The notes below the pieces were generated by a model. It saw only the letters and a list, made by a program, of their open reading frames with translations, did no database searches and was not told the origin of the DNA. The position numbers and the translations under genes are program-made. A DNA stretch of 46,922 bases from Candidatus Woesearchaeota archaeon (lineage in GTDB: Archaea; Nanobdellota; Nanobdellia; Woesearchaeales; JABMPP01): contig JAGVYD010000020.1 of NCBI GenBank assembly GCA_018303405.1, forward strand, positions 3,241 to 50,162. The letters are read 5' to 3'. This document shows, piece by piece, positions 9,634 through 41,112 of the stretch. Each line of letters starts with the position of its first letter. The first letter of the stretch is position 1.

Positions 9634-9789
9634 TTGCCCGAAAACTCGCCTTCCGGCTCGGTTTGGGCATCTGCTCAGCATTGCAGCTTCCCGCGAATTG
9701 CATTTTTCTCCTCTGCAACCCCGAAAAATGCCTAACCCCTCCTGGAATGGGCTTCGCAAAATTGATGCCCAAACTAACTTTTCGGGCAA
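9634..9789 (-). repeat. CGAG three-way-junction element, copy A
   Basis: Read on the minus strand. Outer stem: 9779-9789 pairs with 9634-9644 (11 bp). Second stem: 9764-9774 pairs with 9661-9671 (11 bp, GTTTGGGCATC/GATGCCCAAAC). The 16-nt hairpin at 9660-9645 reads CGAGCCGGAAGGCGAG and abuts both stems exactly. The 5' linker is 4 nt, GTTA. Inside the second stem is a GCATTTTT/AAAAATGC hairpin (9710-9728) and a CTGC/GCAG hairpin (9671-9686). An 8-bp direct repeat, GCTGTCCA, brackets the element at 9621-9628 and 9794-9801. It sits about 18 bp upstream of the ahcY TATA box. It matches copies B, C and D in architecture but not in stem sequence. Confidence 0.75.
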
Positions 9790-9980
9790 GGCCGCTGTCC
9801 ACTTTTTGATGCCTGATTAGGCGGCGCGGCCAGGGCAGGCGAGTTTTTCCGCAAAGAGGCATCTAGTCATGACTTTTATCTCCCTTCTATGGAAAAAAGT
9901 AACTACCATAAAGTTTATATATTAGTTATATATTATACAATAGTAACAAATACATTATTTTACGTTTGGTGGGAAACACA
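9790..9980. other. Intergenic region upstream of the lipoprotein gene
   Basis: No gene is seen. It holds the right-hand GCTGTCCA direct repeat (9794-9801), a GCCTGATTAGGC hairpin near 9811-9822, and a stray GGCGAGTTTTTCCGC (9838-9852). The last resembles the 3' end of element A and could be a remnant of another copy. The last ~80 bp are A/T-rich with TATA-like TATATTAGTTATATATTATA (about 9918-9937), the likely lipoprotein promoter. Confidence 0.5.
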
Positions 9981-11279
9981 ATGAAGGGGACAAACTCAAT
10001 TTTACCAAGCATAATAATTTTAAGTGTGGTTCTACTGATACTTTCCGGCTGTGCGCCTTTGCCAACCAATGATGTTAAGGGATGCGCACCTGTTGCCAGG
10101 CCAGCAGAAGATGTAACCGTGCCAATTGGCGGCGAACCTGCCACCGGAGAGACACCGGCCGGAACTGAAACGCCTGCTGAAACAGTGCCTGAAGAACAGC
10201 CTGTAACCGAAGTTACAGGGGAAGTGCCAGTGACTGAGCCTATTTTGCCAATTGCTTCTGATGAAGACAGTGAACTGATAATGGTTGATGATGGCATTCC
10301 TACAAAATATGTTGTGGAAGGCCAGACAGTCCAGCTTGACCTGAGGGCAATTGACCCGGATGGAGACCCGCTGTCATATACATTCAGCCCGCCAATGGAC
10401 AGCACCGGCAAGTGGAAAACACATGAGGGCGATGTCGGGACTTATTTTGTATCAGTCACAGCTGATGACGGCGAAAGCCAGACAACGCAAAAAGTCAGGA
10501 TAATCGTAAGGCCATCAAACAAGCCGCCAATAATGGGCGAAATCAATGATGTCATGATAGAGGAAGGCAGCACAATAATTCTCAAGCCATTGGTGGTTGA
10601 CCCGGAGAATGATGATATAACAATGAGTTATTCAGGATGGATGGCAACGGATACTTATATCACAACTTTCAATGATGCAGGCGAGCACTTTGTCACAATA
10701 ACTGCAAATGACGGCAAGAACACAGTCAGCCAGGAAGTCCGGATTGTGGTAACCAATGTAAACCGCCCGCCTGTGCTGGGCAACATGGCAGACATGGTTG
10801 CTGTGGAAGGCGATGCTGTCAGGATAGTCTATTATGCAGCTGACCTTGATAAGGATCCCCTGACATTCTCATTCAGCAAGCCTTTCAATGCCTTGGGAGA
10901 ATGGCAGACTGGTTATGAAGACGAAGGCGAGTACCCTGTTATTGTTTCCGTGTCTGATGGGGAACTGACCGATGAAAAGGCGTTCAAGCTCACAGTCTAC
11001 AAGAAGAACAGGGCACCGGCCATAACAGGTGTTGAAGACATCATTGTCAAGGAAGGCGAGTTGGTGCAGTTCAGCCCGATTGCAACTGACCCTGACGGTG
11101 ACCAGGTTTATGTTTCTTACAAAGGCTGGATGAGTTCAGCTTCCTACACAACGAATTATAATGACGCAGGAAGCCACGATGTTTACATCATTGCCTCAGA
11201 CGGAACTGACGCGGCAATCATCATGCGCACAGTTACAGTGGAAAATGTGAACAGGCCGCCAGTGTTCCAGATTGAGTAA
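9981..11279 (+). CDS. Lipoprotein with four Ig/cadherin-like repeats
   Basis: The 432-aa exported protein has an N-terminal signal with lipobox LSGC, so it is probably lipid-anchored at that cysteine. A Thr/Glu/Pro-rich linker (~45-100) follows, then four ~85-residue beta-sandwich repeats. Each repeat starts near PP and contains VEG or EEG, DPDGDPL-like Asp loops and a VTxxDG motif typical of Ig-like, PKD-like or cadherin-like domains. Repeats 1 and 3 share an F-S-x-P core, and repeats 2 and 4 share GWM...T..NDAG, so the array likely arose by duplicating a two-domain unit. ATG 9981 follows GGTGGGA; GTG 9966 would add five residues. Cell-surface adhesion is plausible but unproven. Confidence 0.82.
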   Translation: MKGTNSILPSIIILSVVLLILSGCAPLPTNDVKGCAPVARPAEDVTVPIGGEPATGETPAGTETPAETVPEEQPVTEVTGEVPVTEPILPIASDEDSELIMVDDGIPTKYVVEGQTVQLDLRAIDPDGDPLSYTFSPPMDSTGKWKTHEGDVGTYFVSVTADDGESQTTQKVRIIVRPSNKPPIMGEINDVMIEEGSTIILKPLVVDPENDDITMSYSGWMATDTYITTFNDAGEHFVTITANDGKNTVSQEVRIVVTNVNRPPVLGNMADMVAVEGDAVRIVYYAADLDKDPLTFSFSKPFNALGEWQTGYEDEGEYPVIVSVSDGELTDEKAFKLTVYKKNRAPAITGVEDIIVKEGELVQFSPIATDPDGDQVYVSYKGWMSSASYTTNYNDAGSHDVYIIASDGTDAAIIMRTVTVENVNRPPVFQIE

Positions 11280-11289
11280 GTGAAAAAAA

Positions 11290-11319
11290 TTCGCAATATT
11301 TGTTTTCGCAATATCTGTT
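11290..11319. repeat. Tandem 15-bp duplication
   Basis: Two adjacent copies of TTCGCAATATYTGTT differing at one base, in the convergent spacer just after the lipoprotein stop. Confidence 0.7.
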
Positions 11320-11331
11320 GTGCCAGGGAAT

Positions 11332-11357
11332 CATAAGCAATCAGCATAAGCAATCAG
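11332..11357. repeat. Tandem 13-bp duplication
   Basis: Two exact adjacent copies of CATAAGCAATCAG in the same convergent spacer as the 15-bp duplication. Confidence 0.75.
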
Positions 11358-11381
11358 CGGAAAAACTGGCGACACAAGCGA

Positions 11382-12689
11382 TTAGTATTCATCCAGGAAT
11401 GTCTGGCCCTTGTTTTTTTCTTTTATTTCATTGCCTTCTTTTATGCCAATGCCTGTTTCCTTATTTTCATCTCCTGGTTTTTTCTGGCCAAGCATCGGCA
11501 CGCCATAAACGCCGTCATATCCTGGCCTGATCACAATCTCGCCATTTCTGTTTGCCATGACTGCATCTGCAGTTTCCTCACCTGCAAGCTTGGCCAGTTC
11601 TTCCCTTCCCAAACTCAGCAATATGTCATATTCGCTCCTGTTTTCCTTAATGCTAACCAGTTTGTAGTATTCCTGCCACACATATTTTGTTGCAACAGCC
11701 TTGCCGAGCAGGGCAGCAAGTATGTCCGACAGTGGGATTACCGATCTGAAAGGGATTGCGCCTTCGGGCACAAATCCCTCCTGCCTGTCTGCAAGCTGTT
11801 CCACCCTTTCCAGCACTCCCACTGTAAGCTTTCGCCTGCATTTTGGGCAGATATTGCCAGCTTTCATTGCATCAGCCGGATGCATCACAATATTGCAGCT
11901 GCGATGGCCAGTGAAATGGTATTTCCCGAAATTAGGGTCAACTTCAATTGTTTCGACAAACCCTTTTTTTGTCCTTAAGCATGCGATTAATGCTTCATAG
12001 GTTATTTCCTTCATTTCGAAAACATTGGCTTCCCTTCCAAGCCTCCATGGCCAGAATGAATGCAGGTCGCTGTTTGACACCAGCGCGTACTTGTCAAGCT
12101 GTGACAGCCTCCAGTTCATTGCAGGGTCGCTCGAAAGGCCGGTTTCAAGCGCATGGATATGCCTTGCCTGGTCCCTGAAGCATTCCTCGACTGTGTCAAA
12201 GCCTGAATTTGCGCCAAAGAGGGAAAACCATGGCGTCCATATATGCGCAGGAATTATCTCAATGCTTTCATCAATCCCCTTTAGCTGTTCCACAAGCTCA
12301 TGGCACGGGAACTTCCCAAAAATTGGCCTTCCATCAGAAAGAAGGTTGCCTTTTTTTCCAAGCATCTCATTTATCTGCTCAACAATCTCAAAGCTGCCTG
12401 CCAAGAGCACATTGTGTATCTTCCTGACTTTTCCGCCTTCAGAATATATATTGGAGATTTCAGCTGACAGCACAAAAGGATAGCCGCTTTCTGTCCTCAG
12501 GATTCCGCTTCCATCCTCTTTCAACTGGGCCCTGAACTCTGCAAGCCATTTCGGGTGGGTAAAATCGCCAGTCCCCATCAGGCCCACTCCCTTGATTCGG
12601 GCATATCTCTCAAGATTTTTTACACTGATGTCCTTTGAGGTTGCCCTTGCGTACGGAGAATGGATGTGCAAATCAGCTATGACCCTCAT
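11382..12689 (-). CDS. Endonuclease Q (PHP-domain DNA repair nuclease)
   Basis: The 435-aa protein begins with a PHP metal site, ADLHIHSPYARAT (H8, H10), followed by GTGDFTHP, SAEISNIY, PAHIWTPWFSLFG and SNSDLHSFWP, the metal-binding and active-site strings of EndoQ. A zinc-ribbon follows (CNIVMHPAD...ICPKC). EndoQ cleaves 5' of deaminated bases (uracil, hypoxanthine) and AP sites. The last residues, QTFLDEY, fit a PIP box (QxxLxxY), implying recruitment by PCNA. A Lys/Glu/Gly-rich linker (~400-425) joins this peptide to the core. ATG 12689 lies ~27 nt after a TTTATAAT box on the minus strand, so the longer start at 12701 is less likely. It is divergent from aglB. Confidence 0.88.
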   Translation of the reverse strand: MRVIADLHIHSPYARATSKDISVKNLERYARIKGVGLMGTGDFTHPKWLAEFRAQLKEDGSGILRTESGYPFVLSAEISNIYSEGGKVRKIHNVLLAGSFEIVEQINEMLGKKGNLLSDGRPIFGKFPCHELVEQLKGIDESIEIIPAHIWTPWFSLFGANSGFDTVEECFRDQARHIHALETGLSSDPAMNWRLSQLDKYALVSNSDLHSFWPWRLGREANVFEMKEITYEALIACLRTKKGFVETIEVDPNFGKYHFTGHRSCNIVMHPADAMKAGNICPKCRRKLTVGVLERVEQLADRQEGFVPEGAIPFRSVIPLSDILAALLGKAVATKYVWQEYYKLVSIKENRSEYDILLSLGREELAKLAGEETADAVMANRNGEIVIRPGYDGVYGVPMLGQKKPGDENKETGIGIKEGNEIKEKNKGQTFLDEY

Positions 12690-12776
12690 AGCCGGGTGCA
12701 ATCTTGATAATTATAAAAAGATGATGGGTTTTGCGGTCCAAACAGCCCAGCCCAAACAGCCCAGCCTACCATTAAC

Positions 12777-12785
12777 TTTATATAA
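12777..12785 (+). promoter_or_regulatory. TATA box for aglB
   Basis: TTTATATAA is centred ~27 bp upstream of ATG 12808. It fixes the start well downstream of the open frame boundary, which otherwise overlaps the divergent EndoQ gene. Confidence 0.65.
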
Positions 12786-12807
12786 CCCCTGCCTCTTTTT
12801 CCCCTGC

Positions 12808-15800
12808 ATGGTGGGGAAAGGCTCAGATTCAGAGGATGATGAGATATCTATAGATTTTTCCAAGATAAAGGGATTTTTCTCCGGCAGGAAGAAAAGCGAA
12901 AAGGCAAGGCATTCCAAAAAGCAGGCAGGCATTTCTGAAAGCAAACAGCAGGCAAAGGAAGAAAGCCAGCGGGAATCGGCCAGGCAATCGCAGGAGGCCG
13001 GGGATCAAAATGATGATGACATCTCAATTGACTTTTCAAAAATCAAGAATATCTTTTCAAAAAGTTCCAAAGCAAGAAAATCCAGCACTGCTGATTCTGC
13101 TGATTCTGATGGCTCTGATGATGTAGTTATGGATGCGGAATCCCTTGACAAGGCGAAAAGTTACATAAAAAAATTCTGGCCCTATCTGTTAATCCTTATC
13201 CCAATTTTTATTACAATCTTTGTGCGCGCCCACACAGTCAACCTAGCAGTGACAGACACATGGGCACGGAACAGTGTTTATGACTTTTACAGAAGCCAGA
13301 TAGAAGCGAGCATCAGGCAGCAGAACCCTGGCATAGACCAGAACACTCTTGGCAATGCTGTGGCGCAAAACCTTCAAACTTTCATCGAGCAGCGCAAAGC
13401 AGAGATTGACCAGCAGGTCGTTTTGACATCAGGGGACATAAAGAATTATTTCCAGTACCAGTCAGGCGATACACTGTATCCTTACATGGGCGATATTGAT
13501 TCATATTATTTCCTGAGGCAGGCAAGAAACCTTGCGGAGAAAGGGCATATCTGCGACGTTATTGAAAATGGCGTTTGCTATGATGCCTACACAGTTGCCC
13601 CAAACAAGCTTGTGCTGCCCAAGACCCTCCATCCTTACTCTATATATTATCTCTACAGCTTCCTGAAAATATTCAATAAGGACATTACCCTTATGCAGGC
13701 GCAGATTTATGTCCCGACTCTATACGCTATAATCGCGGCAATCCTTGTTTATTTGATGATGCTTAAGCTTTTTGGCCCGCTCGCGGCGCTGACAGGCAGT
13801 ACACTGCTATCTGTCAACCCGATTTTCCTGACAAGAAGCCTTGGCTCAGACACAGATGTATACAATGTTTTTTTCCCGGTCTTGATTATCTTCCTGGCCT
13901 TTGAGGCCTTCACTGTGGAGGATATCAGGAAAAAAATCATTTTCGCTGCGCTTGCAGGGCTTGCTGTGGGCTCATACAGCTTTGCATGGATAGGGTGGTG
14001 GTATCTCTTTGATTTTATTGCAATCGCAGTGCTCGGCAATTATGCATTGTCCGCGCTCAGGGATTATTTCTCGGAAAAGAAGCCCAGCTTCAAGAATCTC
14101 CTGAATGACAGGAAAACAAAGGAGATGGTGTTTCTTTTGGCAACTTTCGCAGTTGTCGCGCTTCTGGCAGTGGGATTGATTGCGGGCTTCAAGCAGTTGC
14201 CCATAATCTATAAGGGGCCTTTCGGGTTCCTCAAGGCCAAGGTTGCGGCAAATCCAAATATCTGGCCAAATGTCCTAACAACAGTTGCAGAATTTAATGC
14301 TGCATCCATACCGCAAATTGTGTCTCAGGCAGGCGGAAAATGGTGGTTCTTCATGGCACTGCTTGGCTTTATTGTCGTAATCTACAAGAACCTGAAGAAT
14401 GTGGCGAAGAATGTGCTCATCTTCCTGCTTTCAGCCGCCTTGCTATATTATCTGGTAACCCCTAAAGGTACCAGCCTGCCTCCTATTACTTATCTCCTGC
14501 TTTTTGGCCTCACATTTGCGCTCAGCATTATTTTTGTCTTCAAAAGCCAGGAAGAGGTGGATGTCAAGCTCGGCATAATGTTTTTCCTATGGGTCGCTGC
14601 TTCAATCTATGCGGCAACATCGGGAATCAGGTTCACGCTTTTGCTTGTGCCCCCTATTGCCATAGGCATAGGAATAACCTTTGGATTCCTGCATGAAACC
14701 ATTACCTACCTTTTGTCAAAGGCAGTTAAGATTAACAGGGCAATTATCAGCATTATCATTTTCCTTGTGTTCGCATATTATCTGGTCAGCCCGGTAAGGG
14801 GCGGCATTGGCACAGCCAGCAGCTATTTGCCAAATGTCAATGACCAATGGTGGGAGGACCTTACAGCCATAAAGGAAAATTCACAGCCTGACGCAATCAT
14901 AAACAGCTGGTGGGATTTCGGTCATTGGTTCAAGTTTATAGCAGACAGGAGAGTGACACTGGACGGCTCGTCGCAGAACAACCCCCAGCTGCACTGGCTC
15001 GGCCGTTCCCTGCTGACTCCAAGCGACAATGAGGCAAGGGGAATCCTGAGGATGCTGGACTGCGGCGGCAATAATGCATTCAAGGAAATAGATGCTAAGA
15101 AGCAGAACACTCCAAATTCTGTGCAATTGCTCAGGAAGATTATTGTATTGCAGGACCGAGGAGAGGCAAAAAATGTTTTGGCAGCTGACGGATTCTCAGA
15201 TTCTGAATCAGAAAAAGTGCTTCAATACAGCCATTGCAATGCGCCTGAAAACTTCTTTATCACAAGCGAGGACATGATTGGCAAGGGAGGGGTCTGGGCG
15301 CACTTTGGAAGCTGGAGTTTTGAAAGAGCCTGGATGCACAGGCAGTTTGATGACCTGAACTCTGAGTCAAAAGTGGTTGACGCTTACATAAGCCAGTTCG
15401 GGATGTCACGCGAAGACGCGCTCTCATATTATAACCAGATTAGGTCATTGAAGACTGACGCGGAAATTAACCAGTGGATTGCACCATGGCCAAGCTACTT
15501 GCAGGGGGAAGCAGGCTGCACAAGGCAAAGTGAAGCTGTCATTTGCCAGGCCCAGGACCTCATGGTTTATGTCAATCTCACAAACATGGATGTTTACGTC
15601 CCAACACAGCAAGGGGTCAGGAGGATGGATGCTGTCAGCTATACAACACCTGAAAGCTACAACACGATAAGGTATGCATCTGACACAGTGGGCGTTGGAA
15701 TGGTTTTCATGTTTAACAGCGACGGAAGCTACAGCAGCCTGTTCATGTCGCCACAGCTTGTCAACAGCACATTCACCAAGCTGTTCTATCTGAATGGCCA

Positions 15801-16185
15801 CGGAACGCAGTATTTCCAGCTTTTCCGGGACAGCAAGGGGATGAACAATTTCAAAATCAAGATTTGGAAAGTGGACTGGGAAGGGAAGAATCCTCCAATA
15901 CATCTGGCAAGGTTTAATGCGACAAATCCATACTTTGGCAGGACAGTTGAGCAGGTAAGAAAAATGGATGAGGATGCAGCTGCAAAGAAGGCAGCAGAAG
16001 AGGAAGCTGCCAGGCTAAAAGAGGAAGCGCAGGCTGCTGAAGCACAAGCACAGGAAAATCCAGCTGCAGCGGAATCCGGCCAGGCTGAATCAGTCGCACA
16101 GGGCAATGAATCAGCAGTTGGTGAAAGAATTATCATAGCCAAGGACAGCTCTGATTTGGTGGAACAGATTGAAAATACAAATTAG
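12808..16185 (+). CDS. aglB: Oligosaccharyltransferase AglB (STT3 family)
   Basis: The 1125-aa multi-pass protein transfers a lipid-linked glycan to Asn in NxS/T sequons on the outer face of the membrane. A long cytosolic N-terminus (~130 aa) contains an internal duplication: ISIDFSKIKGFFSG and ISIDFSKIKNIFSK. After the first TM come MGDIDSYYF (first DxD-type motif, ~D227), GSDTDVYN (~347, second acidic motif), then ~12 TM helices. WWDFGHWF (~700) is the WWDYG-type sequon-binding motif with Phe for Tyr. EDMIGKGGVWAHFGSW resembles the archaeal DK/MI region. The C-terminus is an Ala/Glu/Lys-rich coiled-coil tail. Both the N-terminal duplication and the acidic tail go beyond usual AglB. The start is set by the TATA box at 12777. 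Confidence 0.93.
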   Translation: MVGKGSDSEDDEISIDFSKIKGFFSGRKKSEKARHSKKQAGISESKQQAKEESQRESARQSQEAGDQNDDDISIDFSKIKNIFSKSSKARKSSTADSADSDGSDDVVMDAESLDKAKSYIKKFWPYLLILIPIFITIFVRAHTVNLAVTDTWARNSVYDFYRSQIEASIRQQNPGIDQNTLGNAVAQNLQTFIEQRKAEIDQQVVLTSGDIKNYFQYQSGDTLYPYMGDIDSYYFLRQARNLAEKGHICDVIENGVCYDAYTVAPNKLVLPKTLHPYSIYYLYSFLKIFNKDITLMQAQIYVPTLYAIIAAILVYLMMLKLFGPLAALTGSTLLSVNPIFLTRSLGSDTDVYNVFFPVLIIFLAFEAFTVEDIRKKIIFAALAGLAVGSYSFAWIGWWYLFDFIAIAVLGNYALSALRDYFSEKKPSFKNLLNDRKTKEMVFLLATFAVVALLAVGLIAGFKQLPIIYKGPFGFLKAKVAANPNIWPNVLTTVAEFNAASIPQIVSQAGGKWWFFMALLGFIVVIYKNLKNVAKNVLIFLLSAALLYYLVTPKGTSLPPITYLLLFGLTFALSIIFVFKSQEEVDVKLGIMFFLWVAASIYAATSGIRFTLLLVPPIAIGIGITFGFLHETITYLLSKAVKINRAIISIIIFLVFAYYLVSPVRGGIGTASSYLPNVNDQWWEDLTAIKENSQPDAIINSWWDFGHWFKFIADRRVTLDGSSQNNPQLHWLGRSLLTPSDNEARGILRMLDCGGNNAFKEIDAKKQNTPNSVQLLRKIIVLQDRGEAKNVLAADGFSDSESEKVLQYSHCNAPENFFITSEDMIGKGGVWAHFGSWSFERAWMHRQFDDLNSESKVVDAYISQFGMSREDALSYYNQIRSLKTDAEINQWIAPWPSYLQGEAGCTRQSEAVICQAQDLMVYVNLTNMDVYVPTQQGVRRMDAVSYTTPESYNTIRYASDTVGVGMVFMFNSDGSYSSLFMSPQLVNSTFTKLFYLNGHGTQYFQLFRDSKGMNNFKIKIWKVDWEGKNPPIHLARFNATNPYFGRTVEQVRKMDEDAAAKKAAEEEAARLKEEAQAAEAQAQENPAAAESGQAESVAQGNESAVGERIIIAKDSSDLVEQIENTN

Positions 16186-16577: not shown

Positions 16578-16590
16578 AAATAATTCCGGT

Positions 16591-16748
16591 TAAAATCTGC
16601 ATTTTCCACCAGTCCATGGCTGGTGGCGGAAAACCATTAGGCGTTCCAGAAAGTGGAAAATGCAGGGTCTGAACGAGCGACCCGGGCGAGAACGAAGTGA
16701 TCGAGCATGCAGCCGGTCTGTGACCGGCCGTGGTCGCGAGTGATTGAC
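16591..16748. repeat. Dispersed repeat family E, copy 1 (long form)
   Basis: The first 24 bp (16591-16614) are identical to 41606-41629. The last 59 bp (16690-16748) match 41650-41708 with three differences. The middle differs in length (75 bp here, 20 bp in copy 2). This copy contains a perfect 13-bp inverted repeat (16598-16610 with 16653-16665, CTGCATTTTCCAC/GTGGAAAATGCAG), an inner CCACCAG/CTGGTGG hairpin and a GCCGGT/ACCGGC hairpin (16712-16728). It lies between the stops of convergent genes and ends 8 bp from the methyltransferase stop. Confidence 0.85.
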
Positions 16749-16755
16749 AACAAGC

Positions 16756-31461: not shown

Positions 31462-31863
31462 TTATTCCGCCTTGACCTGCTTCATGACCTTTTCAGCCAG
31501 TACTATCCAGTAAACAACCTGTGCGCCGTCAACTGCCGCGCCTTTAAGCTCTTCAGGGATTTTCATGTCAAAGGTTTCATAGCTTTCCATGTCCATGACA
31601 TTTGCCACGTCACCCTGGACTGACAATATCTGGGCATTCTTCTTCTCAACCACCGGCACTTCCACATTTTCGTGGCCCGGCGCGACAATGACCCTTTTCT
31701 TGTCGTCAAAAAGGCCGACTCCTGTCAGCCTGATTTTTGCATGGCCATGCTTTCCAGGCCTGCTGACCTGGATATCCACAACCTTGCATGCAGCGCCATC
31801 AATGACAATATAATTTCCTTTCTGAAGCTCGTTTATTCCAACTAATTTGGTTGCACCAGTCAT
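31462..31863 (-). CDS. Translation initiation factor aIF5A
   Basis: The 133-aa protein binds near the ribosomal E/P sites and relieves stalling, for example at polyproline. K38 in SRPGKHGHAK is the lysine that becomes (deoxy)hypusine. The N-terminal SH3-like barrel (~5-70) and the C-terminal OB fold (~72-133, with ILSVQGDVANVMDMESYETF) are complete. It heads the aIF5A-eL40-S2P operon. TATATAAA at 31933-31926 gives a leader of ~40 nt with GAGGGAT before the ATG, so this mRNA is not leaderless. Confidence 0.95.
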   Translation of the reverse strand: MTGATKLVGINELQKGNYIVIDGAACKVVDIQVSRPGKHGHAKIRLTGVGLFDDKKRVIVAPGHENVEVPVVEKKNAQILSVQGDVANVMDMESYETFDMKIPEELKGAAVDGAQVVYWIVLAEKVMKQVKAE

Positions 31864-31947
31864 GATAATCCCTCTATCTCAACATCAATATGCCCTTTTG
31901 CCAATGGATTAGGATTTTTAAGCCCTATATAAAGGTTTCCCCGCTCT

Positions 31948-32112
31948 GGCGCTGCCCCGAGACTTGCTTTTGGCATCAAATATGTGAGGTTCAGCTGTTC
32001 ATGCCTTAACGCATTTTTCGAAGTTCCAGGGAGAAAAATGCTCTCAAGTTGAGCGTATACAGCCGAACAGATGCCAAAAGTCGAGGCGTATGCCGAGATC
32101 CGGGGCAGAGCC
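31948..32112 (+). repeat. CGAG three-way-junction element, copy B
   Basis: Outer stem: 31948-31959 with 32101-32112 (GGCGCTGCCCCG/CGGGGCAGAGCC, 11 of 12 paired). Second stem: 31967-31977 with 32070-32080 (CTTTTGGCATC/GATGCCAAAAG, 11 bp). The hairpin is 32082-32097, CGAGGCGTATGCCGAG. An internal hairpin GCATTTTTC/GAAAAATGC (32011-32041) is shared in form with copy A. The junction has a few extra nucleotides compared with A, C and D (linker AGACTTG; ATC after the hairpin). It lies between the aIF5A promoter and the 3' end of the cyclophilin gene. The flanks CCCCGCTCT and CCCCATTCT are only a weak direct repeat. Confidence 0.72.
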
Positions 32113-33892: not shown

Positions 33893-35617
33893 ATGCCAGC
33901 AAAAGACCAGCCAAGCACTGAAGCCAGCCGGGATGCCCTGCAGAAAGCCAGGAATAAGCACCGGCGCAGGCTGCTGATATCTTCTGTTGCCGCCGGAGTT
34001 GTCTTGCTGATAATCATTCTTTTCATGTTCAGCCTCAAGGTTAATTTCCTTCTTAAGGAAGAGATGGTCATTCGCCTGGCACCAACCTACCAGTCCTTCA
34101 GTCTTGCGCATGGCGAGCAGGCACAGCTTGAGGTTGAATCCCAGCTTGACAACTACTGGCTATGCAGGGCGCATTGCAGCTACTTCCTTAAGGACGTATC
34201 GCAAAATACAATCCTGCAGGCCGGCACATTCAATTACAGCAATCATCATAAGGATATATTCTCTGCCATCCTGGGCGCGGACAAGCTTGGATACGGCCAG
34301 TCTGTCTACACGCTGAGCCTTGTCTGCAGCAACATCCCTTCAAGGCTCTGCCCTTCCTCTACAATCCCCATTGAAAGGTCAGCGATTTTTACAGTGAATT
34401 ACCGCCCAAATCCTGGCGAACAGGCGCAGATTGAATCTTTCAAGAAAAGCTATGCCGGCATAGCAAGGCAGCTGAACAATGCAACCCTTGAATTTGCGAA
34501 TTCGCGGAGCGCAATTGAGCATTTAAGGAATGCCAACACTGCCCGCCTGACCATGTCTTTGGTGTTAATCAATGCTTCATTATTTGATTATGAAAAAATG
34601 GTGCATGAATCAATTTCAGAATATGAAAGGCATAATTATGCCAATGCCGCAAAAATACTCGAGTCCTCTTCCTTGCTTGAAAAGGCGAATGCAGCAGCGC
34701 TTGAAGCGGCAAAGCTGCCTGGCGAAACTGCAAATCTTGTAAGCCAGCATAACCAGACCATAGAACAGCTTACTGATGTGTCTGAGCAGGGATTGTTCCT
34801 GAACACGCTTATTTTCACGGGCAACCAAAGCAAGGCTGTCCTTGGCAAATATGATGGAATGGGCAGGGAAATCCTGGAAGTGAGCAATTCCCTTGCTGTC
34901 CATGATTTTTATGACTATGCCGAATTGCTTGAGAGGCTTGGCAAGGCCGGGCAGGCAGGGGCACTGATAACAAATGCATTCCTGGATGATTTCACGGGCT
35001 CTTCCCGGGATTACATTGATTTGGAAATTTCCAAGGCCCTTCTTTGCATTTCAGCTGCGAATGGCAGCTGCAGCATAGGCGTTTCATCCATGGCTTCTGC
35101 GCAAGAAATCCAAAGCGTGGCTGATGCAAACGCCATGGCAATTGAAAAATGCAGGGACGCCGGCGCAATCCTCAAAACTGCGGAGGAAATGAGCCGGGCC
35201 AGGAACTCTTCAGTTGCAAACCTGACATCTGATGAAAAGGGATCAATTGGCCGGGAAAAATTATTGGCAGTCCTTTCCATCCTCGGTAAGATTGAGCTTC
35301 AAATGTCCGAGAAAAATATTTCGGGCGTGCAGGGCAGGACCCAGGCTTATGCACGGCTGATTTATGCCATCCTGGAGGAAAAGCCAAATGTCAGCGTGTC
35401 ATATTATTCCTCAATTAATGAAAGCATTGCCCTTTTGTTTGATCCAATCTTTGCCCCTAGCCTTGAGGTAATCCAAAAAATCAATGGGCGATGCATTGAG
35501 CAGCAGGAAAATAAGGTCACATTGCTCTGGCCAATCAGCCTTGAATACGAGAATCTGGACTATCCTATTGTGAATGATTCAAGACTTGACATTGAGGCCC
35601 GGCATAAGCATCTATGA
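33893..35617 (+). CDS. Membrane-anchored extracytoplasmic helical protein, 574 aa
   Basis: The N-terminus is basic (ARNKHRRRLL), with one TM (~29-48) and a large exported region. Residues ~65-165 look like a beta domain with four cysteines (LCRAHCSYF, LVCSN, RLCPSS). The rest is helical with many NxS/T sequons (for example NNATLEF, NASLFD, NGSCS, NSSVANLT, NISGV), consistent with AglB-dependent glycosylation. No family is recognised. The C-terminus stops at 35617, inside a second frame that encodes a lipase-like C-terminal piece. The gene may therefore be a fusion damaged by deletion or frameshift. Confidence 0.72.
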   Translation: MPAKDQPSTEASRDALQKARNKHRRRLLISSVAAGVVLLIIILFMFSLKVNFLLKEEMVIRLAPTYQSFSLAHGEQAQLEVESQLDNYWLCRAHCSYFLKDVSQNTILQAGTFNYSNHHKDIFSAILGADKLGYGQSVYTLSLVCSNIPSRLCPSSTIPIERSAIFTVNYRPNPGEQAQIESFKKSYAGIARQLNNATLEFANSRSAIEHLRNANTARLTMSLVLINASLFDYEKMVHESISEYERHNYANAAKILESSSLLEKANAAALEAAKLPGETANLVSQHNQTIEQLTDVSEQGLFLNTLIFTGNQSKAVLGKYDGMGREILEVSNSLAVHDFYDYAELLERLGKAGQAGALITNAFLDDFTGSSRDYIDLEISKALLCISAANGSCSIGVSSMASAQEIQSVADANAMAIEKCRDAGAILKTAEEMSRARNSSVANLTSDEKGSIGREKLLAVLSILGKIELQMSEKNISGVQGRTQAYARLIYAILEEKPNVSVSYYSSINESIALLFDPIFAPSLEVIQKINGRCIEQQENKVTLLWPISLEYENLDYPIVNDSRLDIEARHKHL

Positions 35618-35822
35618 AATAATCGGAAAAGGCTGCGACATGGAAGGAAATGACGGCGACGGGGTTGTCACTGTAAATAGCAGCATCCTCGCCTATGCAA
35701 ACATCACCTTTATCGATGGGGCATGCACAGGAGTGAATTCTTTGCACATGGACATGCTTGACCCCAGCCTTTACCCAGTTGTCTATGGCGAAGTTAAAAA
35801 AATTCTTGAAGCCAAAACATAA
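35574..35822 (+). pseudogene. C-terminal fragment resembling an alpha/beta-hydrolase (lipase)
   Basis: The 82-aa frame overlaps the end of the previous gene by 44 bp. IYEIIGKGCDMEGNDGDGVVTVNSSIL followed by SLHMDML and VVYGEVKKILEAK reproduces the last third of a lipase/LCAT-type hydrolase. In that fold the Asp after the G-x-G loop (DGDGVV) and a C-terminal His (LHMDML) are the catalytic acid and base. The nucleophile elbow GxSxG and the N-terminal half are missing here and in the upstream frame. It is therefore best read as a remnant, an unusual small protein, or the product of a frameshift plus deletion. Confidence 0.5.
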
Positions 35823-35854
35823 AGTATTTATCCTTCTTTGTTTAAGAATAAACA

Positions 35855-35879
35855 GGGTGTTTGACAGGGGTGTTTGACA
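35855..35879. repeat. Tandem duplication covering the msrA ribosome-binding site
   Basis: GGGTGTTTGACA at 35855-35866 and 35868-35879 (period 13) duplicates the purine-rich Shine-Dalgarno. The second copy runs into the ATG of msrA. Confidence 0.75.
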
Positions 35880-36400
35880 TGCCTACCATAAAAAAGAAAC
35901 AAGCTAATGATGGAAACCACGACAAAAATTATAGCTTGGCAACTTTTGGCGCTGGCTGTTTTTGGGGCGTTGAATCAGAATTCAGGAAAATCCACGGCGT
36001 AATTGACGCTGTATCAGGCTATTGCGGCGGCGCCATGAAAAACCCGACATATGAGGATGTCTGCACGGACAAAACAGGGCATGCCGAGGCGGTTGAAGTA
36101 AAGTTTGACCCGAAAATTGTAAGCTATGCAAAGCTGGTTGAAGTATTTTTTTCCATCCACAACCCAACAACGCCGAACAGGCAGGGGCTGGACATGGGGA
36201 CGCAATACCACTCGGTTATATTCTACCACAATAAATCGCAGAAAAAGACAGCCGAGGAAATCAGGGCGCGGCTGGGCAAATCCGGAAAGTTCAGGAATCC
36301 GATTGTGACTTCAATCGAACCGGCGAAGCCATTCTACCGCGCCGAGGAATACCACCAAAGGTATCTTGAGAAGAAAGGATTGGATAGCTGCCACATATAA
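35879..36400 (+). CDS. msrA: Peptide-methionine (S)-S-oxide reductase
   Basis: The 173-aa protein has ATFGAGCFWGVE with catalytic C27, SGYCGG, YEDVCTDKTGHAEAVEV, the NPTTPNRQGLDMGTQYHS substrate region and C-terminal resolving cysteine C171 (DSCHI). It reduces methionine-S-sulfoxide in proteins, using thioredoxin-type reductants. ATG 35879 follows GGGGTG and is preferred to the in-frame TTG at 35861. It belongs to the oxidative-stress cluster of this half of the window. Confidence 0.95.
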   Translation: MPTIKKKQANDGNHDKNYSLATFGAGCFWGVESEFRKIHGVIDAVSGYCGGAMKNPTYEDVCTDKTGHAEAVEVKFDPKIVSYAKLVEVFFSIHNPTTPNRQGLDMGTQYHSVIFYHNKSQKKTAEEIRARLGKSGKFRNPIVTSIEPAKPFYRAEEYHQRYLEKKGLDSCHI

Positions 36401-36430
36401 AGATGAAATAAACGTAAATAATCATGATGG

Positions 36431-37339
36431 TTAAGAATTTCCGGGCTGTGTGGTTTTAAATGCATCATAAGCATTCAATGCAACATGAACTGGGACAGTG
36501 CCGCCAAGTTTTGGGTCAACCCTGGCAAGCTGTGCAAATGGCTTTCCATTCCCTGTTTCCAGGCTCCTCATTGCATCCAGAAATTCTACAGTGAAATCTC
36601 TCGGCGGCGTATAGCCGGCTTCCTTGAAGAATTTCTCCAGCCTGAATCTCTCGTTTTCATTCTGGAGTATTCCATAGTGCAGGTTAACAGATGACAATGC
36701 ATCATCACCATACTTGTAAGTGCCCGATCGTGCTTCTTCAGGCAATCCTTTTAGTCTTGCCCTGTCAGCTATCCTGCCGAGTGGGTCACTTAAAATTAAT
36801 GGACCCATGGACAGGGCTACACCAGTTGTCATTACACCACCTATGAGGTAAAATGCTTGTGCAACTTCTGAAAGTGATTGCACGTATTCTGTACCAAATA
36901 ATGAATACGCAAGCCCACCCACAGTAGGAACCGCCAAGCCCATCCCAATAGTGTTGCCGCTGACCCCTTCACCTATGGATCTCGGAGGCCATGCAAAATA
37001 TTTCCTCTGTTCAAGGATTTTTTCAGAAAGGTGTCCTGATGTTGCCTTGGCTACATCGACATTGTCATTGTCTGCAATGAATATTCCCTGGAGCTCGCCA
37101 TCTTTATCAATATATAACGCAGAAATCCCCTTTTCGCTTACTACATTTTTATCCGGCTCGACAAAATACTCTACGGGGTTGCTGTCTCTTACATTAATGC
37201 CCCACTGGCCTTTTTTGGTCGTGACAACAATTTTACCATGCGGATAAAGCGCTTCCACTTTTTTATCAAGGCCATCAGCATTCCCTAAGCGGGCAAACCG
37301 GACCTGCTTTGCAATATTTCTATCATCAACCCCTGCCAT
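36431..37339 (-). CDS. Hypothetical protein with central TM pair, 302 aa
   Basis: The N-terminal half (~1-125) is soluble and beta-rich (GKIVVTTKKGQWGINVRD, ISALYIDKDGELQGIFIAD). Two hydrophobic segments follow (~138-158, TIGMGLAVPTVGGLAYSLFG; ~170-193, FYLIGGVMTTGVALSMGPLIL), then a charged C-terminal region. There is no match to a family I know. ATG 37339 is preferred because an ATATTTAAAG box lies ~27 nt upstream on the minus strand; ATG 37360 would start only ~8 nt after that box. It diverges from sod across element C. Confidence 0.66.
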   Translation of the reverse strand: MAGVDDRNIAKQVRFARLGNADGLDKKVEALYPHGKIVVTTKKGQWGINVRDSNPVEYFVEPDKNVVSEKGISALYIDKDGELQGIFIADNDNVDVAKATSGHLSEKILEQRKYFAWPPRSIGEGVSGNTIGMGLAVPTVGGLAYSLFGTEYVQSLSEVAQAFYLIGGVMTTGVALSMGPLILSDPLGRIADRARLKGLPEEARSGTYKYGDDALSSVNLHYGILQNENERFRLEKFFKEAGYTPPRDFTVEFLDAMRSLETGNGKPFAQLARVDPKLGGTVPVHVALNAYDAFKTTQPGNS

Positions 37340-37403
37340 GCCTGGAGAAATAACCTTCATCTTTAAATATCTTACGGAAGAGTGGTAATTGGATTGGCAA
37401 AGG

Positions 37404-37565
37404 GCGCTGTGGAAAATGTAAGTCTTGCCATCAGTTGTGCGAGCATTTTATTCTCACAAAGGCACATGCAAAGGAGATGGCAAGAGGAATTTGCATCTTC
37501 ATGCCAAATCAGAGAATGCGAGCCGATGGCAAGACCGAGGCGCCAGCCGAGATTTTCCACAGCGC
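37404..37565 (+). repeat. CGAG three-way-junction element, copy C
   Basis: Outer stem: 37404-37417 with 37552-37565 (14 bp, GCGCTGTGGAAAAT/ATTTTCCACAGCGC), extendable by TTGGC/GCCAA outside. Second stem: 37422-37432 with 37525-37535 (11 bp, GTCTTGCCATC/GATGGCAAGAC). The hairpin is 37536-37551, CGAGGCGCCAGCCGAG, abutting both stems with no spare base. The 5' linker is GTAA. A second GATGGCAAGA inside the loop (around 37488-37497) could compete for the second stem. It lies upstream of the sod promoter (TTTAAATAT at 37582-37590) in a divergent intergenic region that otherwise holds no gene. Confidence 0.78.
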
Positions 37566-37675
37566 TCCCTTAAAGCCAACATTTAAATATGGAATAGCAT
37601 TTATTTTTGCCATACTAAACCATTGTTAATTTTAATCTTTTTTTCGAATAACAAAACAATCTTGAGGTGGACAAA

Positions 37676-38287
37676 ATGGCACACACTTTACCTGAATTGG
37701 GATACGCATACAATGCGCTTGAGCCTTTCATAGACGAGCAAACAATGAAAATTCATCACGCCAAGCACCACCAGGCTTACATTGACAAGCTGAATGCAGC
37801 AATCCAGGGCAGCCATGAACTGGAGAAAATGAGCGCAGAGGAGCTGATAAAGAGCCTGGACAAGGTTCCTGAAAATATAAGGGTGGCTGTGCGAAACAAT
37901 GGTGGCGGCCATGTCAATCATTCATTTTTCTGGAAACTGCTGAAAAAGGATGCCGGAAAGCCATCATCGCAAATTGCAGCAGCAATCGACAAGGCTTTTG
38001 GGGGCTTTGACAAATTCAAGGAGGAATTTTCAAATGCAGCAGCAGCAAGGTTTGGCTCTGGCTGGGCATGGCTGGTTGTGCACAACGGCAGGCTTGAGGT
38101 CATGAGCACTGCAAACCAGGACAACCCAATGAGCGAGGGCAAAACGCCTATACTCGGAATAGATGTATGGGAGCATGCATATTACCTGAAATACCAGAAC
38201 AGGAGGCCAGAATATATTGGGGCATTCTTCAATGTGATAAATTGGGAGCAGGTTGCAGCTAATTTTGCCGCGGCCCACAAAAAATAG
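37676..38287 (+). CDS. Fe/Mn superoxide dismutase
   Basis: The 203-aa enzyme converts superoxide to peroxide and oxygen. The metal ligands H27 (MKIHHAK), H82 ([10 protein letters not shown]), D163 and H167 ([13 protein letters not shown]) are all present. The metal preference cannot be fixed from sequence alone. ATG 37676 follows GAGGTGG. The leader is ~60 nt after a TTTAAATAT box. The stop overlaps into the peroxiredoxin start (TAGGTG), so the two are translationally coupled: peroxide made here is the substrate of the next enzyme. Confidence 0.95.
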
Positions 38288-38749
38288 GTGAGACTTTTGC
38301 TGAAGGAAGGCGACAAAGCCCCGGATTTTATCCTGAAGGATACAGACGGAAACACAATACACCTGGAGGATTATCTTGGATCCAGCGTCGTGCTCTATTT
38401 TTATCCAAGGGACAATACCCCTGGCTGCACCAAGGAGGCCTGCGCTTTCAGGGATGCCATGAGGACAATCAAGGAAAGGCAGGCAATTGTGCTCGGTGTG
38501 AGCCACGACAACTGCGAATCACACAAGAAATTCCGGGATGAATTCAAGCTTAATTTCCCCCTGTTATGCGATATTGAAAAGGAAATATCCATGAAATATG
38601 GGGTTTATGTCCCAAAGAAAATGCATGGCAGGGAATTCATGGGAATTGACCGGACAACATTTTTAATCGATCAGGATGGCATGATCAAGAAAATATTTAA
38701 GAAGGTTGAAGTTGAAGGCCATGTAGAAGAGGTGCTTTCACTTTTATAA
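38288..38749 (+). CDS. bcp: Peroxiredoxin, Bcp/PrxQ type
   Basis: The 153-aa thiol peroxidase has FYPRDNTPGCTKEACAF with peroxidatic C47 and resolving C52, the 1-Cys-to-2-Cys spacing typical of PrxQ. A conserved Arg is in GIDRTTFLID. It reduces peroxides with thioredoxin or glutaredoxin. GTG 38288 begins immediately after the sod TAG, with no gap, so reinitiation or coupled translation is likely. Confidence 0.94.
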   Translation: MRLLLKEGDKAPDFILKDTDGNTIHLEDYLGSSVVLYFYPRDNTPGCTKEACAFRDAMRTIKERQAIVLGVSHDNCESHKKFRDEFKLNFPLLCDIEKEISMKYGVYVPKKMHGREFMGIDRTTFLIDQDGMIKKIFKKVEVEGHVEEVLSLL

Positions 38750-38768
38750 TCCTATCTTATAATCCTAT
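38744..38768. repeat. Tandem duplication over the bcp stop codon
   Basis: TTATAATCCTAT at 38744-38755 and 38757-38768 (period 13). The first copy contains the peroxiredoxin stop codon. Confidence 0.75.
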
Positions 38769-38785
38769 TTACAATGAGGTGCAAA

Positions 38786-39403
38786 ATGGCAAGGACACAA
38801 AAAACACAGCAGGCAAAGACTATACAAAGAAAATCTGGCAAGGTCATTGGCGTCAAGATTACAAAAGACATGACAATCGGCGATGTCATTTCAAAATATC
38901 CAAGGACAGCGGAAGTCCTGCAGGCCAATGGCGTTCACTGTGTGGGGTGCCATGTCAAATACTGGGAAAGCCTGGAAGGCGGCTTTAAGGGCCATGGGAT
39001 GACAGACGAGCAGGTTGATTTTGTGCTGTCCGAGCTTAACAAGGTTGTTGCAGATGACGAGGCTCCTGGCGAAAACAACAAGGAATTTGTTGTGACCAAA
39101 CAGGCAGCTGCAAAGCTCAGGGAACTTTTCATGAAGGAAAAAAAGGAAAATTATGGATTGAGGATAAGCGTTGTCCCTGGCGGCTGTTCCGGCTACAGCT
39201 ACGGCCTGGAATTTGAGAATAAGGAGACCAAGGAAGACAAGGTGCTGAAGGAAAACGGCGTAAAAATCATAATTGACAATGAAAGCCTGAAAATGATTAA
39301 GGGCTCAAAGCTGGACTTCGTCGACACTCTCCAAGGCTCAGGATTCAAGATAACCAACCCAAATGCAGTTGACAGCTGCGGCTGCGGGCAAAGCTTCAGG
39401 TAA
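38786..39403 (+). CDS. DUF1858-IscA/HesB fusion (Fe-S carrier)
   Basis: The 205-aa protein has an N-terminal DUF1858 module (~22-90) with KDMTIGDVISKYPRTAEVLQ and NGVHCVGCH (C52, C55). An A-type Fe-S carrier (~99-205) follows, with the three invariant cysteines C133 (GGCSGY), C198 and C200 (SCGCGQ). IscA/ErpA proteins hold and deliver Fe-S clusters or iron. DUF1858 modules with CxxC occur in hybrid or di-iron/redox proteins. Fusing the two suggests a redox- or ligand-gated carrier. ATG 38786 follows GAGGTG and sits 36 bp after bcp, forming a sod-bcp-iscA operon. Confidence 0.9.
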   Translation: MARTQKTQQAKTIQRKSGKVIGVKITKDMTIGDVISKYPRTAEVLQANGVHCVGCHVKYWESLEGGFKGHGMTDEQVDFVLSELNKVVADDEAPGENNKEFVVTKQAAAKLRELFMKEKKENYGLRISVVPGGCSGYSYGLEFENKETKEDKVLKENGVKIIIDNESLKMIKGSKLDFVDTLQGSGFKITNPNAVDSCGCGQSFR

Positions 39404-39438
39404 TTTTGGCTAGAATGGCCATTGGATTATAGAAAGGG

Positions 39439-39462
39439 ATAATAACAATACAATAATAACAA
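39439..39462. repeat. Short tandem duplication after the IscA-like gene
   Basis: ATAATAACAA at 39439-39448 and 39453-39462 (period 14) in the convergent spacer. Confidence 0.55.
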
Positions 39463-39474
39463 AATTTATCGGGG

Positions 39475-40785
39475 CTATAATCGTTCCGTGAATTTCCTGT
39501 AGTCAAAGTAAGCGTCAACAGCTTTTTGCATAATTGCCCTGGGGATTATGCTTCCCTGCGTTCCCGGCTTTCTGAATGCATTGAAAATCCTGCTGTCCCC
39601 GTGCTTCATGTAGTCCAGCATAAGCTTGCCTGACAGGAATGCCATTGCCAGTCCGTGCCCTGAGTAAGCCATGGAATACAGCAAATTCTTGTGCCTCTGG
39701 TCATGCCCTATAATCGGAAGGTCATTTTTTGTGAATCCAACAGTGCCTTTCCAGAAATGCGTAAACTCCACGTTCATCAGCTCCGGGAAAATTTTTCTTG
39801 AGCTATCCTTGATATTTTGCAGGACTGCCTTTCCCTGCCCTTCAAAATCCTTTGGCTTCTCATGGCCGTGCCCGACAAAGATATTCCCGTTGCCAACTAC
39901 AATCCTGTTGTCCTCAGTTGGCCTGAAGTAATCATAGAAATCGTAGCTGTCCCACAGCATTTGCCTTTTTTCCTTGAAAATTGCCTGCATTTTTCCTTCT
40001 GTGAGGGGCTCGGTTGCAGCTGTATAGCTTGTCATCGGCAAAACATCATGCTCCATGCCGAGGGCGTATGTCTGTGAATCTGTGCCAACTATTACATGGT
40101 CTGCGTCCAACTCGCCCAAATCTGTCCTCAGGAAGACCTTGTGCGATGTCGGATATATGCTTTTGACTTGTGAATGCTCATGGATGACTGCCTTTGATTT
40201 TATGGCGGCATCTGCCAGGCCATGCAGGAATTTCAATGGGTCAGCAGACCTGTCATAAGGCGACTGGATTGCAGCATGGAACGCTGACGAGCCGATTTCA
40301 TCCTTAACCTGCCTTGCATCAAGGAAGTCGCATGAGTAGCCAACCTGCCTTCTTGCCTCATGCTCCTTTTCCAGCATTTTAGTGTGCGATGGCTTTGCAG
40401 CCAAATCCAGGCTACCCTGCTTTGCCCAGTCGCATTTTATCTTTTCCTTGGCGACAATCTCTTCGGCCAATTTAATGGAATACAAGGATAGGTCCCACAG
40501 TGCTTTTGCCCTTTGCCTGCCATAATCCCTTTCAGCCTGCCAGAAATAGCCACCCCCTCCAATTGAGAATATGCCGGAGCTTGCGCCAGTTGCCCCTGCC
40601 CCTATTTCATGCGCTTCCAGGACAACAACTTTGTAGCCTGCTTTGGAAAGGAAATATGCATTGGACATCCCGGTCAGGCCGCCGCCAATGATTGCAATGT
40701 CAGCCTTTTCCCTGCCCTTAAGTTTCGGCCTGTGTTTTCTTGCCTTTCCCTGGTATTCATGCCACAAAGGGTAGTTTGCTATCAT
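39475..40785 (-). CDS. FAD-dependent DAO-family oxidoreductase
   Basis: The 436-aa protein has an N-terminal Rossmann FAD site IAIIGGGLTGMSNAYFL with the acidic end VVVLEA, then GAGATGASSGIFSIGG. These match D-amino-acid-oxidase-fold enzymes of the gamma-glutamylputrescine oxidoreductase (PuuB)/glycine oxidase group. The C-terminal GHGLAMAFLSGKLM closes the FAD site. It probably oxidises an amine or amino acid, and oxidase members release H2O2, which would fit the nearby peroxiredoxin and SOD. TATTTAATA at ~40808-40816 is ~27 nt before ATG 40785. Substrate unknown. Confidence 0.87.
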   Translation of the reverse strand: MIANYPLWHEYQGKARKHRPKLKGREKADIAIIGGGLTGMSNAYFLSKAGYKVVVLEAHEIGAGATGASSGIFSIGGGGYFWQAERDYGRQRAKALWDLSLYSIKLAEEIVAKEKIKCDWAKQGSLDLAAKPSHTKMLEKEHEARRQVGYSCDFLDARQVKDEIGSSAFHAAIQSPYDRSADPLKFLHGLADAAIKSKAVIHEHSQVKSIYPTSHKVFLRTDLGELDADHVIVGTDSQTYALGMEHDVLPMTSYTAATEPLTEGKMQAIFKEKRQMLWDSYDFYDYFRPTEDNRIVVGNGNIFVGHGHEKPKDFEGQGKAVLQNIKDSSRKIFPELMNVEFTHFWKGTVGFTKNDLPIIGHDQRHKNLLYSMAYSGHGLAMAFLSGKLMLDYMKHGDSRIFNAFRKPGTQGSIIPRAIMQKAVDAYFDYRKFTERL

Positions 40786-40860
40786 ATCAGTGCACAGCTT
40801 AACTTATTATTTAATACTTGGTCTACCCCTTGCAGTAAAAACACTAAACATTGGTGCTGC

Positions 40861-41112
40861 TCAGTTGAAAATACCGTCGCCATAAATTCGCGCAGGCTTT
40901 CCATTAAACAAACAAGGTTGACAGGGGGATGTCCCTTACGGGGATGTCAAGAACTGCCTGCTAAAGCAGGCAGCGTGTTTGGATACTGCCTAAAAAGTGA
41001 GCAGTTCTTGAGCATGCTCAGAAATCGATATTCTTTCACCGAGACCTATTGATAATCCACATAAATGCCGAAGCCTATGGCGACCGAGGCGAAAGCCGAG
41101 ATTTTCAACTGA
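40861..41112 (+). repeat. CGAG three-way-junction element, copy D (long)
   Basis: Outer stem: 40861-40872 with 41101-41112 (12 bp, TCAGTTGAAAAT/ATTTTCAACTGA). Second stem: 40876-40884 with 41076-41084 (9 bp, GTCGCCATA/TATGGCGAC). The hairpin is 41085-41100, CGAGGCGAAAGCCGAG, with a GAAA (GNRA) loop, abutting both stems. The linker is ACC. The interior is longer than in A-C and contains a perfect CTGCCTGC/GCAGGCAG hairpin (40954-40973), a competing AAGAACTGC/GCAGTTCTT pair (40949-40957 with 41001-41009) and a 15-bp-period duplication of GGGGATGTC (40925-40948). A 10-bp direct repeat ACATTGGTGC brackets it at 40848-40857 and 41115-41124. Confidence 0.78.

Follow-up and report, generated by a model that had tools for sequence, protein, structure and literature searches.

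Are the four intergenic elements sharing a three-way-junction fold, which lie in a 46,922-nucleotide stretch of a Candidatus Woesearchaeota archaeon genome (assembly GCA_018303405.1, contig JAGVYD010000020.1, positions 3,241 to 50,162 of the forward strand; hereafter the window), copies of a structured RNA or something else? An initial annotation, made from the letters alone, had described them (here elements A to D) as an outer stem, a short linker, a second stem and a 16-nt hairpin in constant order. All four were found at nearly the coordinates it gave, and the exact hairpin pattern CGAGSCNNNNGSCGAG matches the window four times, at A to D. We consider it highly probable that they are copies of a non-autonomous family resembling miniature inverted-repeat transposable elements (MITEs), which is mobilised in trans by IS5-like DDE transposases, is placed at promoters and carries a folded core.

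The outer stem of the fold is formed by what are, in IS5-like transposons, the terminal inverted repeats. Target duplications were assessed in 130 matches to the family, 54 from the genome of the window (the own genome) and 76 foreign, 74 of the latter having enough flanking sequence. The 9-bp flanks are alike at eight or nine positions in 24 of the 54 own and 38 of the 74 foreign copies, against 0.14% and 0.02%, respectively, for mismatched flank pairs; 8-bp flanks (seven or eight positions alike) were seen in 10/54 and 14/74, and other lengths in 0-2. A further sample from the genome richest in copies, G149, which has seven copies in common with the first, yielded 28 duplicated cases among 85 (control 0.01%). 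Subtypes ending GGCTTAGCAG and GGCGTTATTG tend, by eye, to 8-bp duplications. With lengths of about 150-260 bp, the copies are too short for a transposase gene and display the inverted repeats and duplications that define MITEs; judged by these termini and flanks, the elements are mobile DNA. A plain non-coding RNA was accordingly rejected: the outer stem consists of the inverted termini of a transposon, many copies have 8-9 bp target duplications and no convincing Rfam match was found for the elements in the window or at eight further loci. As the outer stem is a terminal inverted repeat, its covariation alone is no evidence for RNA. The IS200/IS605 elements, which transpose as single strands, lack inverted-repeat ends and generate no target duplication, are excluded by the inverted repeats and the 8-9 bp duplications.

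The elements and their parts are laid out in the window as follows, with scores from a covariance model (R1) built from 12 own-genome copies:

9630..9793, minus strand: element A, a type A copy of 164 bp; full-length match to R1, 171.5 bits
9779..9793, minus strand: 5' strand of the outer stem (P1) of A, which is its left terminal inverted repeat, GGCCTTGCCCGAAAA
9630..9644, minus strand: 3' strand of P1 of A, which is its right terminal inverted repeat, TTTTCGGGCAAAGCC
9764..9774, minus strand: 5' strand of the inner stem (P2) of A, GTTTGGGCATC; partner strand at 9661-9671
9751..9757, minus strand: 5' side of P2b of A, GCGAAGC, the first tandem G.A module; partner GCTGAGC
9645..9660, minus strand: hairpin P3 of A, CGAGCCGGAAGGCGAG, the second tandem G.A module, with a GGAA loop
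9794..9802, minus strand: left 9-bp target duplication of A, GTGGACAGC, 8/9 identical
9621..9629, minus strand: right 9-bp target duplication of A, ATGGACAGC
31948..32112, plus strand: element B, a type B copy of 165 bp; full-length match to R1, 124.7 bits
32082..32097, plus strand: hairpin P3 of B, CGAGGCGTATGCCGAG
37403..37566, plus strand: element C, a type C copy of 164 bp; full-length match to R1, 152.6 bits
37536..37551, plus strand: hairpin P3 of C, CGAGGCGCCAGCCGAG
40858..41115, plus strand: element D, 258 bp with an enlarged inner arm; borders set by the 9-bp flanking repeat
41085..41100, plus strand: hairpin P3 of D, CGAGGCGAAAGCCGAG, with a GAAA loop
40849..40857, plus strand: left 9-bp target duplication of D, CATTGGTGC
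41116..41124, plus strand: right 9-bp target duplication of D, CATTGGTGC, 9/9 identical

The GNRA loops of A (GGAA) and D (GAAA), the 4-nt linkers GTTA and GTAA, and the hairpin abutting both stems in A, C and D are all as first described. The stems had also been said to differ wholly between copies, which does not hold for the inner stem: A, B and C retain GCATC/GCCATC opposite GATGC/GATGGC. In B, the innermost positions of the outer stem are mismatched, which makes the linker longer; this corrects the earlier description, which had further overlooked both the tandem G.A module in the long arm (P2b of A) and the target-site duplications. Only the right part of element D (41042-41115, E 0.0016) is matched by the covariance model, because its interior is longer. 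The enlarged arm (40918-41047) has 76 of its 117 14-mers in common with a stretch inside copy L088 on contig C9 and 20 of 117 with L212; part of it is bounded by the inverted repeats TCAAGAACTGC..GCAGTTCTTGA and is possibly an insert within the element.

How large is the family? In the own genome of 1,605,204 bases the hairpin pattern has 22 matches, belonging to several subtypes with differing outer stems, and none in a backwards-read control. A 164-nt type A query matched 37 places, 28 of them at 90-98% identity. Model R1, with 150 of 633 candidates scored, returned 63 rows at E<=1, of which three are antisense readings of places already listed, leaving about 60 places; the further copies on which the first description had staked itself thus exist here, and in related genomes as well. 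Across the same order, R1 has matches at E<=0.01 in 69 of 352 genomes, the own one among them, and these cover 50 of 220 genera; eight candidates were scored per genome, so that copy numbers are minimum values, and a small number of weak matches could have arisen by chance. In a sample of the class 16 of 378 genomes were positive, in one of the phylum 35 of 371, and all of these positives belong to this order. When 12 positive genomes were searched at greater depth (150 candidates each), they held 4 to 144 rows, the maximum being in G149, and stretches of G149 picked for known copies (308 kb) gave 90 rows. In these stretches (L283-L302) some copies adjoin in opposite orientation, e.g. at L283 783-938 (minus) and 946-1107 (plus), and look as if a single site had been hit repeatedly. 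In genome G162, each of the seven rows listed (L269, L277 and others) falls in the same core and is no more than about 11 bases from where a contig stops, which suggests a high-copy repeat that broke the assembly. One type A copy (L048 1501-1620) is without the P2 3' strand and hairpin and keeps both ends and the flanking repeat GCAAATAAC.

The hairpin pattern by itself proved a poor marker in relatives: it matched 34 of 98 genomes (own included), and these foreign matches are judged mostly chance because none of 29 loci reached a three-way-junction score of 18 (best 16). The covariance model found relatives that this pattern misses. A longer pattern had four matches in genome_contigs, all titled bacteria and taken, unexamined, as chance, and none in viral_contigs; records close to the genome of the window were possibly excluded from both searches. 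At L077 (genome G030) CGAGGCGCAAGCCGAG recurs at 1501, 1603 and 1705 with a spacing of 102 bp; it was not scored as a three-way-junction element.

Is the shared fold itself genuine? The proposal of one three-way-junction architecture common to the copies, with strong covariation, is borne out. Among the 76 foreign copies, 41 of 42 pairs have changed on both sides and 94.9% of alignment cells pair, compared to 35-42% for slid partners; in the own genome (54 distinct rows of 56, two copies entering twice via overlapping loci) the figures are 96.3% of cells, 35 of 42 doubly changed pairs and 32-46% for slid partners, and both alignments were fitted to the model and so are biased towards it. When 26 copies, each from a different genome, were aligned independently with MAFFT, RNAalifold recovered the outer stem (13 pairs) and six pairs around the inner G.A tandem, with double changes in 16 of the 20 consensus pairs; P2, P3 and P4, whose lengths vary, were not recovered from this alignment. 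The family fold is real. Its two tandem G.A modules are kept: of the 76 foreign rows, 73 retain G.A and 70 retain A.G in P2b, and of the 56 own rows 54 and 52 do so. In P3, G.A is found in 51/56 and A.G in 49/56 own rows, and the foreign rows have G in 61/76 and A in 62/76 on the 5' side; in seven of the 76, T and C replace the 5' bases of the module and pair with the 3' A and G.

These tandems had been likened to a kink-turn that L7Ae might bind. A kink-turn has a 3-nt bulge directly adjoining its tandem G.A pairs; here tandem sheared-type G.A pairs are likewise possible, but those of P2b and P3 lie within continuous helices, where they are flanked on either side by Watson-Crick pairs and lack an adjacent 3-nt bulge, and the comparison is rejected on this anatomy. 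The remark that no named archaeal RNA with this layout was known is supported: no Rfam 15 family exceeded its gathering threshold at the elements, the only match in the window being a tRNA, and at eight further element loci the best overlapping match was sR46 (17.9 bits against a threshold of 50, E 2.5), taken as chance.

Where the elements insert is equally distinctive. Base composition of the flanks reveals a TATA-like box about 16-23 bp from either element end, and the DNA between box and duplication is T-rich (A-rich on the other strand), which we take to fit the B recognition element (BRE) of a promoter facing away. This was quantified in the 118 of 129 copies that have at least 300 bp on both sides (the neighbouring copy L218b was omitted). 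A hit at the set distance, i.e. an 8-mer ending 11-18 bp from the element, is present in 100 of the 118: 47 on the left only, 46 on the right only and seven on both sides. If the reference point is moved along these flanks by 8-200 bp, 3-23 of 118 copies have a box, the 8-bp shift alone reducing 100 to 23; the hits concentrate in one 6-bp bin and the neighbouring bins are sparse. The G149 sample comprises the 85 long rows among 90, has seven copies in common with the first sample and includes 82 rows with flanks; 57 of these 82 have a box, versus 6-21 after shifting. It might be that the position just upstream of a promoter is simply where an insertion should be harmless to the gene, selection having removed insertions elsewhere. 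The sharpness of the peak, confined as it is to a single bin and collapsing upon the 8-bp shift, makes selection against gene damage alone an unlikely explanation, and we regard survival without targeting as quite improbable.

Where a one-sided box is accompanied by an open reading frame (ORF) called there, the nearest such ORF points away from the element in 28 of 41 cases on the left and 35 of 44 on the right (63/85); in 25 of the 63 the distance between element and ORF start is 44-46 bp. In the window the corresponding features, with the boxes read by eye, are:

9607..9614, minus strand: TATA-like box TATATAAA beside element A at the fixed family distance
8333-9583, minus strand: ORF beside A, starting at 9583, 46 bp from the element
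31926..31933, plus strand: TATA-like box TATATAAA to the left of element B at the fixed distance
31462-31863, minus strand: ORF on the TATA side of B, pointing away
37582..37589, plus strand: TATA-like box TTTAAATA to the right of element C at the fixed distance
37667-38287, plus strand: ORF on the TATA side of C, pointing away

This geometry bears on the idea of a cis-acting leader or regulatory RNA of the adjacent genes. Many adjacent ORFs do start less than 100 bp from an element, as a leader would have it; however, the element mostly lies upstream of the TATA-like box of a gene pointing away, and hence outside the expected transcript, and both orientations are equally frequent, so that we deem such a role highly improbable. 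Insertion at the transcription start, with the element transcribed as a leader, is likewise disfavoured by the 63 of 85 TATA-side genes that point away.

A different repeat family also occurs in the window (16588-16748 and 41603-41708): its two members share 59 bp at 95% identity (16690, 41650) and 34 bp at 88% (16588, 41603), and carry a GCCGG..CCGGC hairpin.

Which transposase could move elements with no gene of their own? A search for PF01609 (DDE_Tnp_1) covered 55 of the 69 positive genomes, and 23 matched. Among 30 such loci inspected, two combine matching ends with a perfect 9-bp duplication, namely L175 (ends GGCTCTGTCCTGAATCT) and L189 (ends GGCTCAGTAGAAAGTCT); L178 has matching ends with a duplication of 8/9, in three others the ends are similar and the duplications poorer or offset, and the remaining 24 are without such ends. 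The full-size elements measure about 0.9-1.0 kb, their inverted repeats start with GGC, and the same TATA spacing is visible by eye in four of six of them, as it is in two of four contig-end copies. The best NCBIfam match of the partner transposases is the IS5 family NF033579 (E 7.9e-37 for L189, 3e-39 for L168), at bit scores below its curated cut-off; PF01609 scores are 49.0 bits for L189, 60.9 for L168 and 26.5 for the open part of L175, against a threshold of 23. L175 also has a marginal match to ISH6 (E 0.00095). The three partners scanned match the IS5 and PF01609 models best and do not qualify as Mutator-like transposases. Partner homology, size, GGC-start repeats and, in the best cases, 9-bp duplications are points of likeness to the IS5 family. 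In the own genome, four contig ends carry 19 residues like a transposase C-terminus (63% identity) followed by an end, GATTTTCTACAGAGCC or GATTTTCTACTAGGCC, which, read by eye, resembles the type C ends; these pieces suggest repeats that broke the assembly, and a full-size IS5-like element is probably present in the own genome too, cut at contig ends.

Several observations weigh against parts of this interpretation. The partner transposases, at 127.3 and 135.2 bits, remain under the NCBIfam cut-off of 140 and in this differ from the IS5 family proper, as they do in their fixed placement beside archaeal TATA boxes, for which we know of no described IS5 element. A PF01609 profile search of the own genome gave no match and no complete transposase gene, the contig-end pieces match over their 19 residues at E 0.08-0.20 only, and the same search gave none in G149, for all its copies; the pairing of each subtype with a partner, drawn from similar ends, is putative. 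Within the window, B and C have flanks agreeing at four of nine positions each, the 9-bp duplication being no longer present in B and unrecognisable in C, and neither flank of D has a TATA-like box at the fixed distance. Likewise, 18 of the 118 copies are without a box at that distance and 22 of the 85 TATA-side ORFs do not point away; the TATA matrix was drawn up ad hoc, ORF starts were assigned mechanically, and the sampling was not random but combined most own-genome copies with the top-scoring foreign matches. Recruitment through the archaeal factors TBP and TFB, finally, is proposed from the spacing.

With these reservations, the transposon reading can be put in mechanistic terms. An IS5-like DDE transposase would move the short elements in trans via similar terminal inverted repeats, and insertion duplicates 9 bp of the target, or apparently 8 in some subtypes. 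The transposase or its complex may be guided by a promoter bound by TBP/TFB or by bent TATA DNA, such that the staggered cut would fall just upstream of the BRE/TATA region and spare the gene. The folded core (the inner stem, the two tandem G.A modules, the hairpin P3 and the variable arm) is predicted to serve the element itself, since neither orientation of the copies relative to the targeted promoter is preferred; most likely it would bring the two ends together or be bound during transposition.

Does the core, then, act as RNA or as DNA? Folding energy separates neither RNA from DNA nor one strand from the other: the RNA fold of element A (-71.6 kcal/mol, z -5.17), that of its opposite strand (z -5.62) and its DNA fold (z -5.42) are equally unusual. 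A selected RNA or single strand should undergo its single changes via G.U rather than A.C. Distinct single changes in the core of close copies number eight G.U to one A.C, and nine to six in the G149 sample; the outer stem gives 16 to 10 and, in the G149 sample, 9 to 8. This preference is a weak lean towards RNA or a single strand, not proof.

A functional structured RNA that is also mobile, acting in trans or for the host and spread by transposon ends, would account for the core count of eight to one, the double changes in P2, P2b, P3 and P4, the one-strand conservation of G.A and A.G in P2b, the GNRA loops of some copies and, in copies L271 and L272 of genome G090, about three extra hairpins seen by eye between the inner stem and P3. 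Yet the asymmetry weakens in the G149 sample, G.U is rare in P2, P2b and P3 of the foreign set (21 cells versus 9 A.C among about 1,350 standard pairs), and the targeted promoter is approached without orientation preference (47 versus 46); this explanation seems rather unlikely to us. Those extra hairpins were all that viewing by eye revealed when cores without matching ends (G090, G066, G339, G265, G162) were checked for a longer autonomous element, ORFs not being searched systematically.

At the other extreme, the family might be an ordinary MITE in which template switching or arm conversion corrects the palindrome by mutation and keeps the inner pairing without selection on the fold. The frequency of outer-stem double changes in close G149 copies (24 distinct double versus 28 single) and the scarcity of G.U intermediates fit this, but such correction should erase the G.A/A.G mismatches too, which P2b keeps in more than 90% of copies, and the junction layout is present in 50 of 220 genera; we consider it improbable. 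The one-strand G.A tandems and the extra junction hairpins are arguments for a folded strand, and the even split between insertion orientations is one against any service to the neighbouring gene. That transposition is guided by TBP/TFB and that the core, travelling with differing IS5-like inverted repeats, acts directly as a folded DNA or RNA strand is a fuller version of the transposon reading, which we put forward tentatively, as one possibility.

The insertion of the present elements at a fixed distance upstream of promoter-like sites is analogous to the behaviour of the p-MULT 3/4 elements, here at archaeal TATA-like boxes. Among eukaryotes, Ty3 is guided by TFIIIB, which includes TBP. 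Ty3 inserts in a narrow window upstream of genes in yeast (PMC8632968), and differs from the present family in being a retrotransposon with an integrase, acting at eukaryotic Pol III genes. TnGBS, ISLre2 and some ISKra4 behave alike, inserting at a fixed distance upstream of promoters, which for TnGBS and related insertion sequences is 15-17 bases ahead of the -35 region of sigma-A promoters; they have Mutator-like p-MULT 3/4 transposases and use bacterial promoters, whereas the partners here belong to another transposase family by the models tried, and p-MULT 3 elements insert in one orientation, in contrast to the present copies, though some p-MULT 4 elements show promoters on both sides (PMC3942029). 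For archaeal ISH6, that paper goes no further than to suggest a possible preference for promoter or intergenic regions. A survey found insertion sequences often in promoter regions, less than 100 bp from genes (PMC9208149); the sharp fixed distance to an intact TATA-like box sets the present elements apart. Prokaryotic MITEs are described as derived from insertion sequences, able to fold and integrating in intergenic DNA (PMC10969869), and in 30 archaeal genomes 19 MITE-like elements were reported for which no partner was recognised (PMC3852290). The present elements resemble these in shortness, absence of an ORF, inverted repeats like those of insertion sequences, duplications, high copy number and foldability, and differ in that a homologous core that folds and contains tandem G.A modules recurs in 50 of 220 genera, in their subtype-specific inverted repeats and in the sharp placement at TATA-like boxes. 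Among open-licence papers, judged by titles and abstract openings, we found no description of a folded core shared across genera or of TATA-directed insertion by an archaeal insertion sequence.

The interior of a typical MITE is usually thought to be neutral. Keeping a three-way-junction core in 50 of 220 genera while the ends vary by subtype is unlike this picture. From the sharp placement beside TATA-like boxes it appears that transposons of archaea can recognise promoters in a manner comparable to bacterial TnGBS and yeast Ty3, and the borders of the elements could serve to map promoters in uncultivated archaeal genomes. More generally, strong covariation in intergenic DNA need not imply a non-coding RNA.

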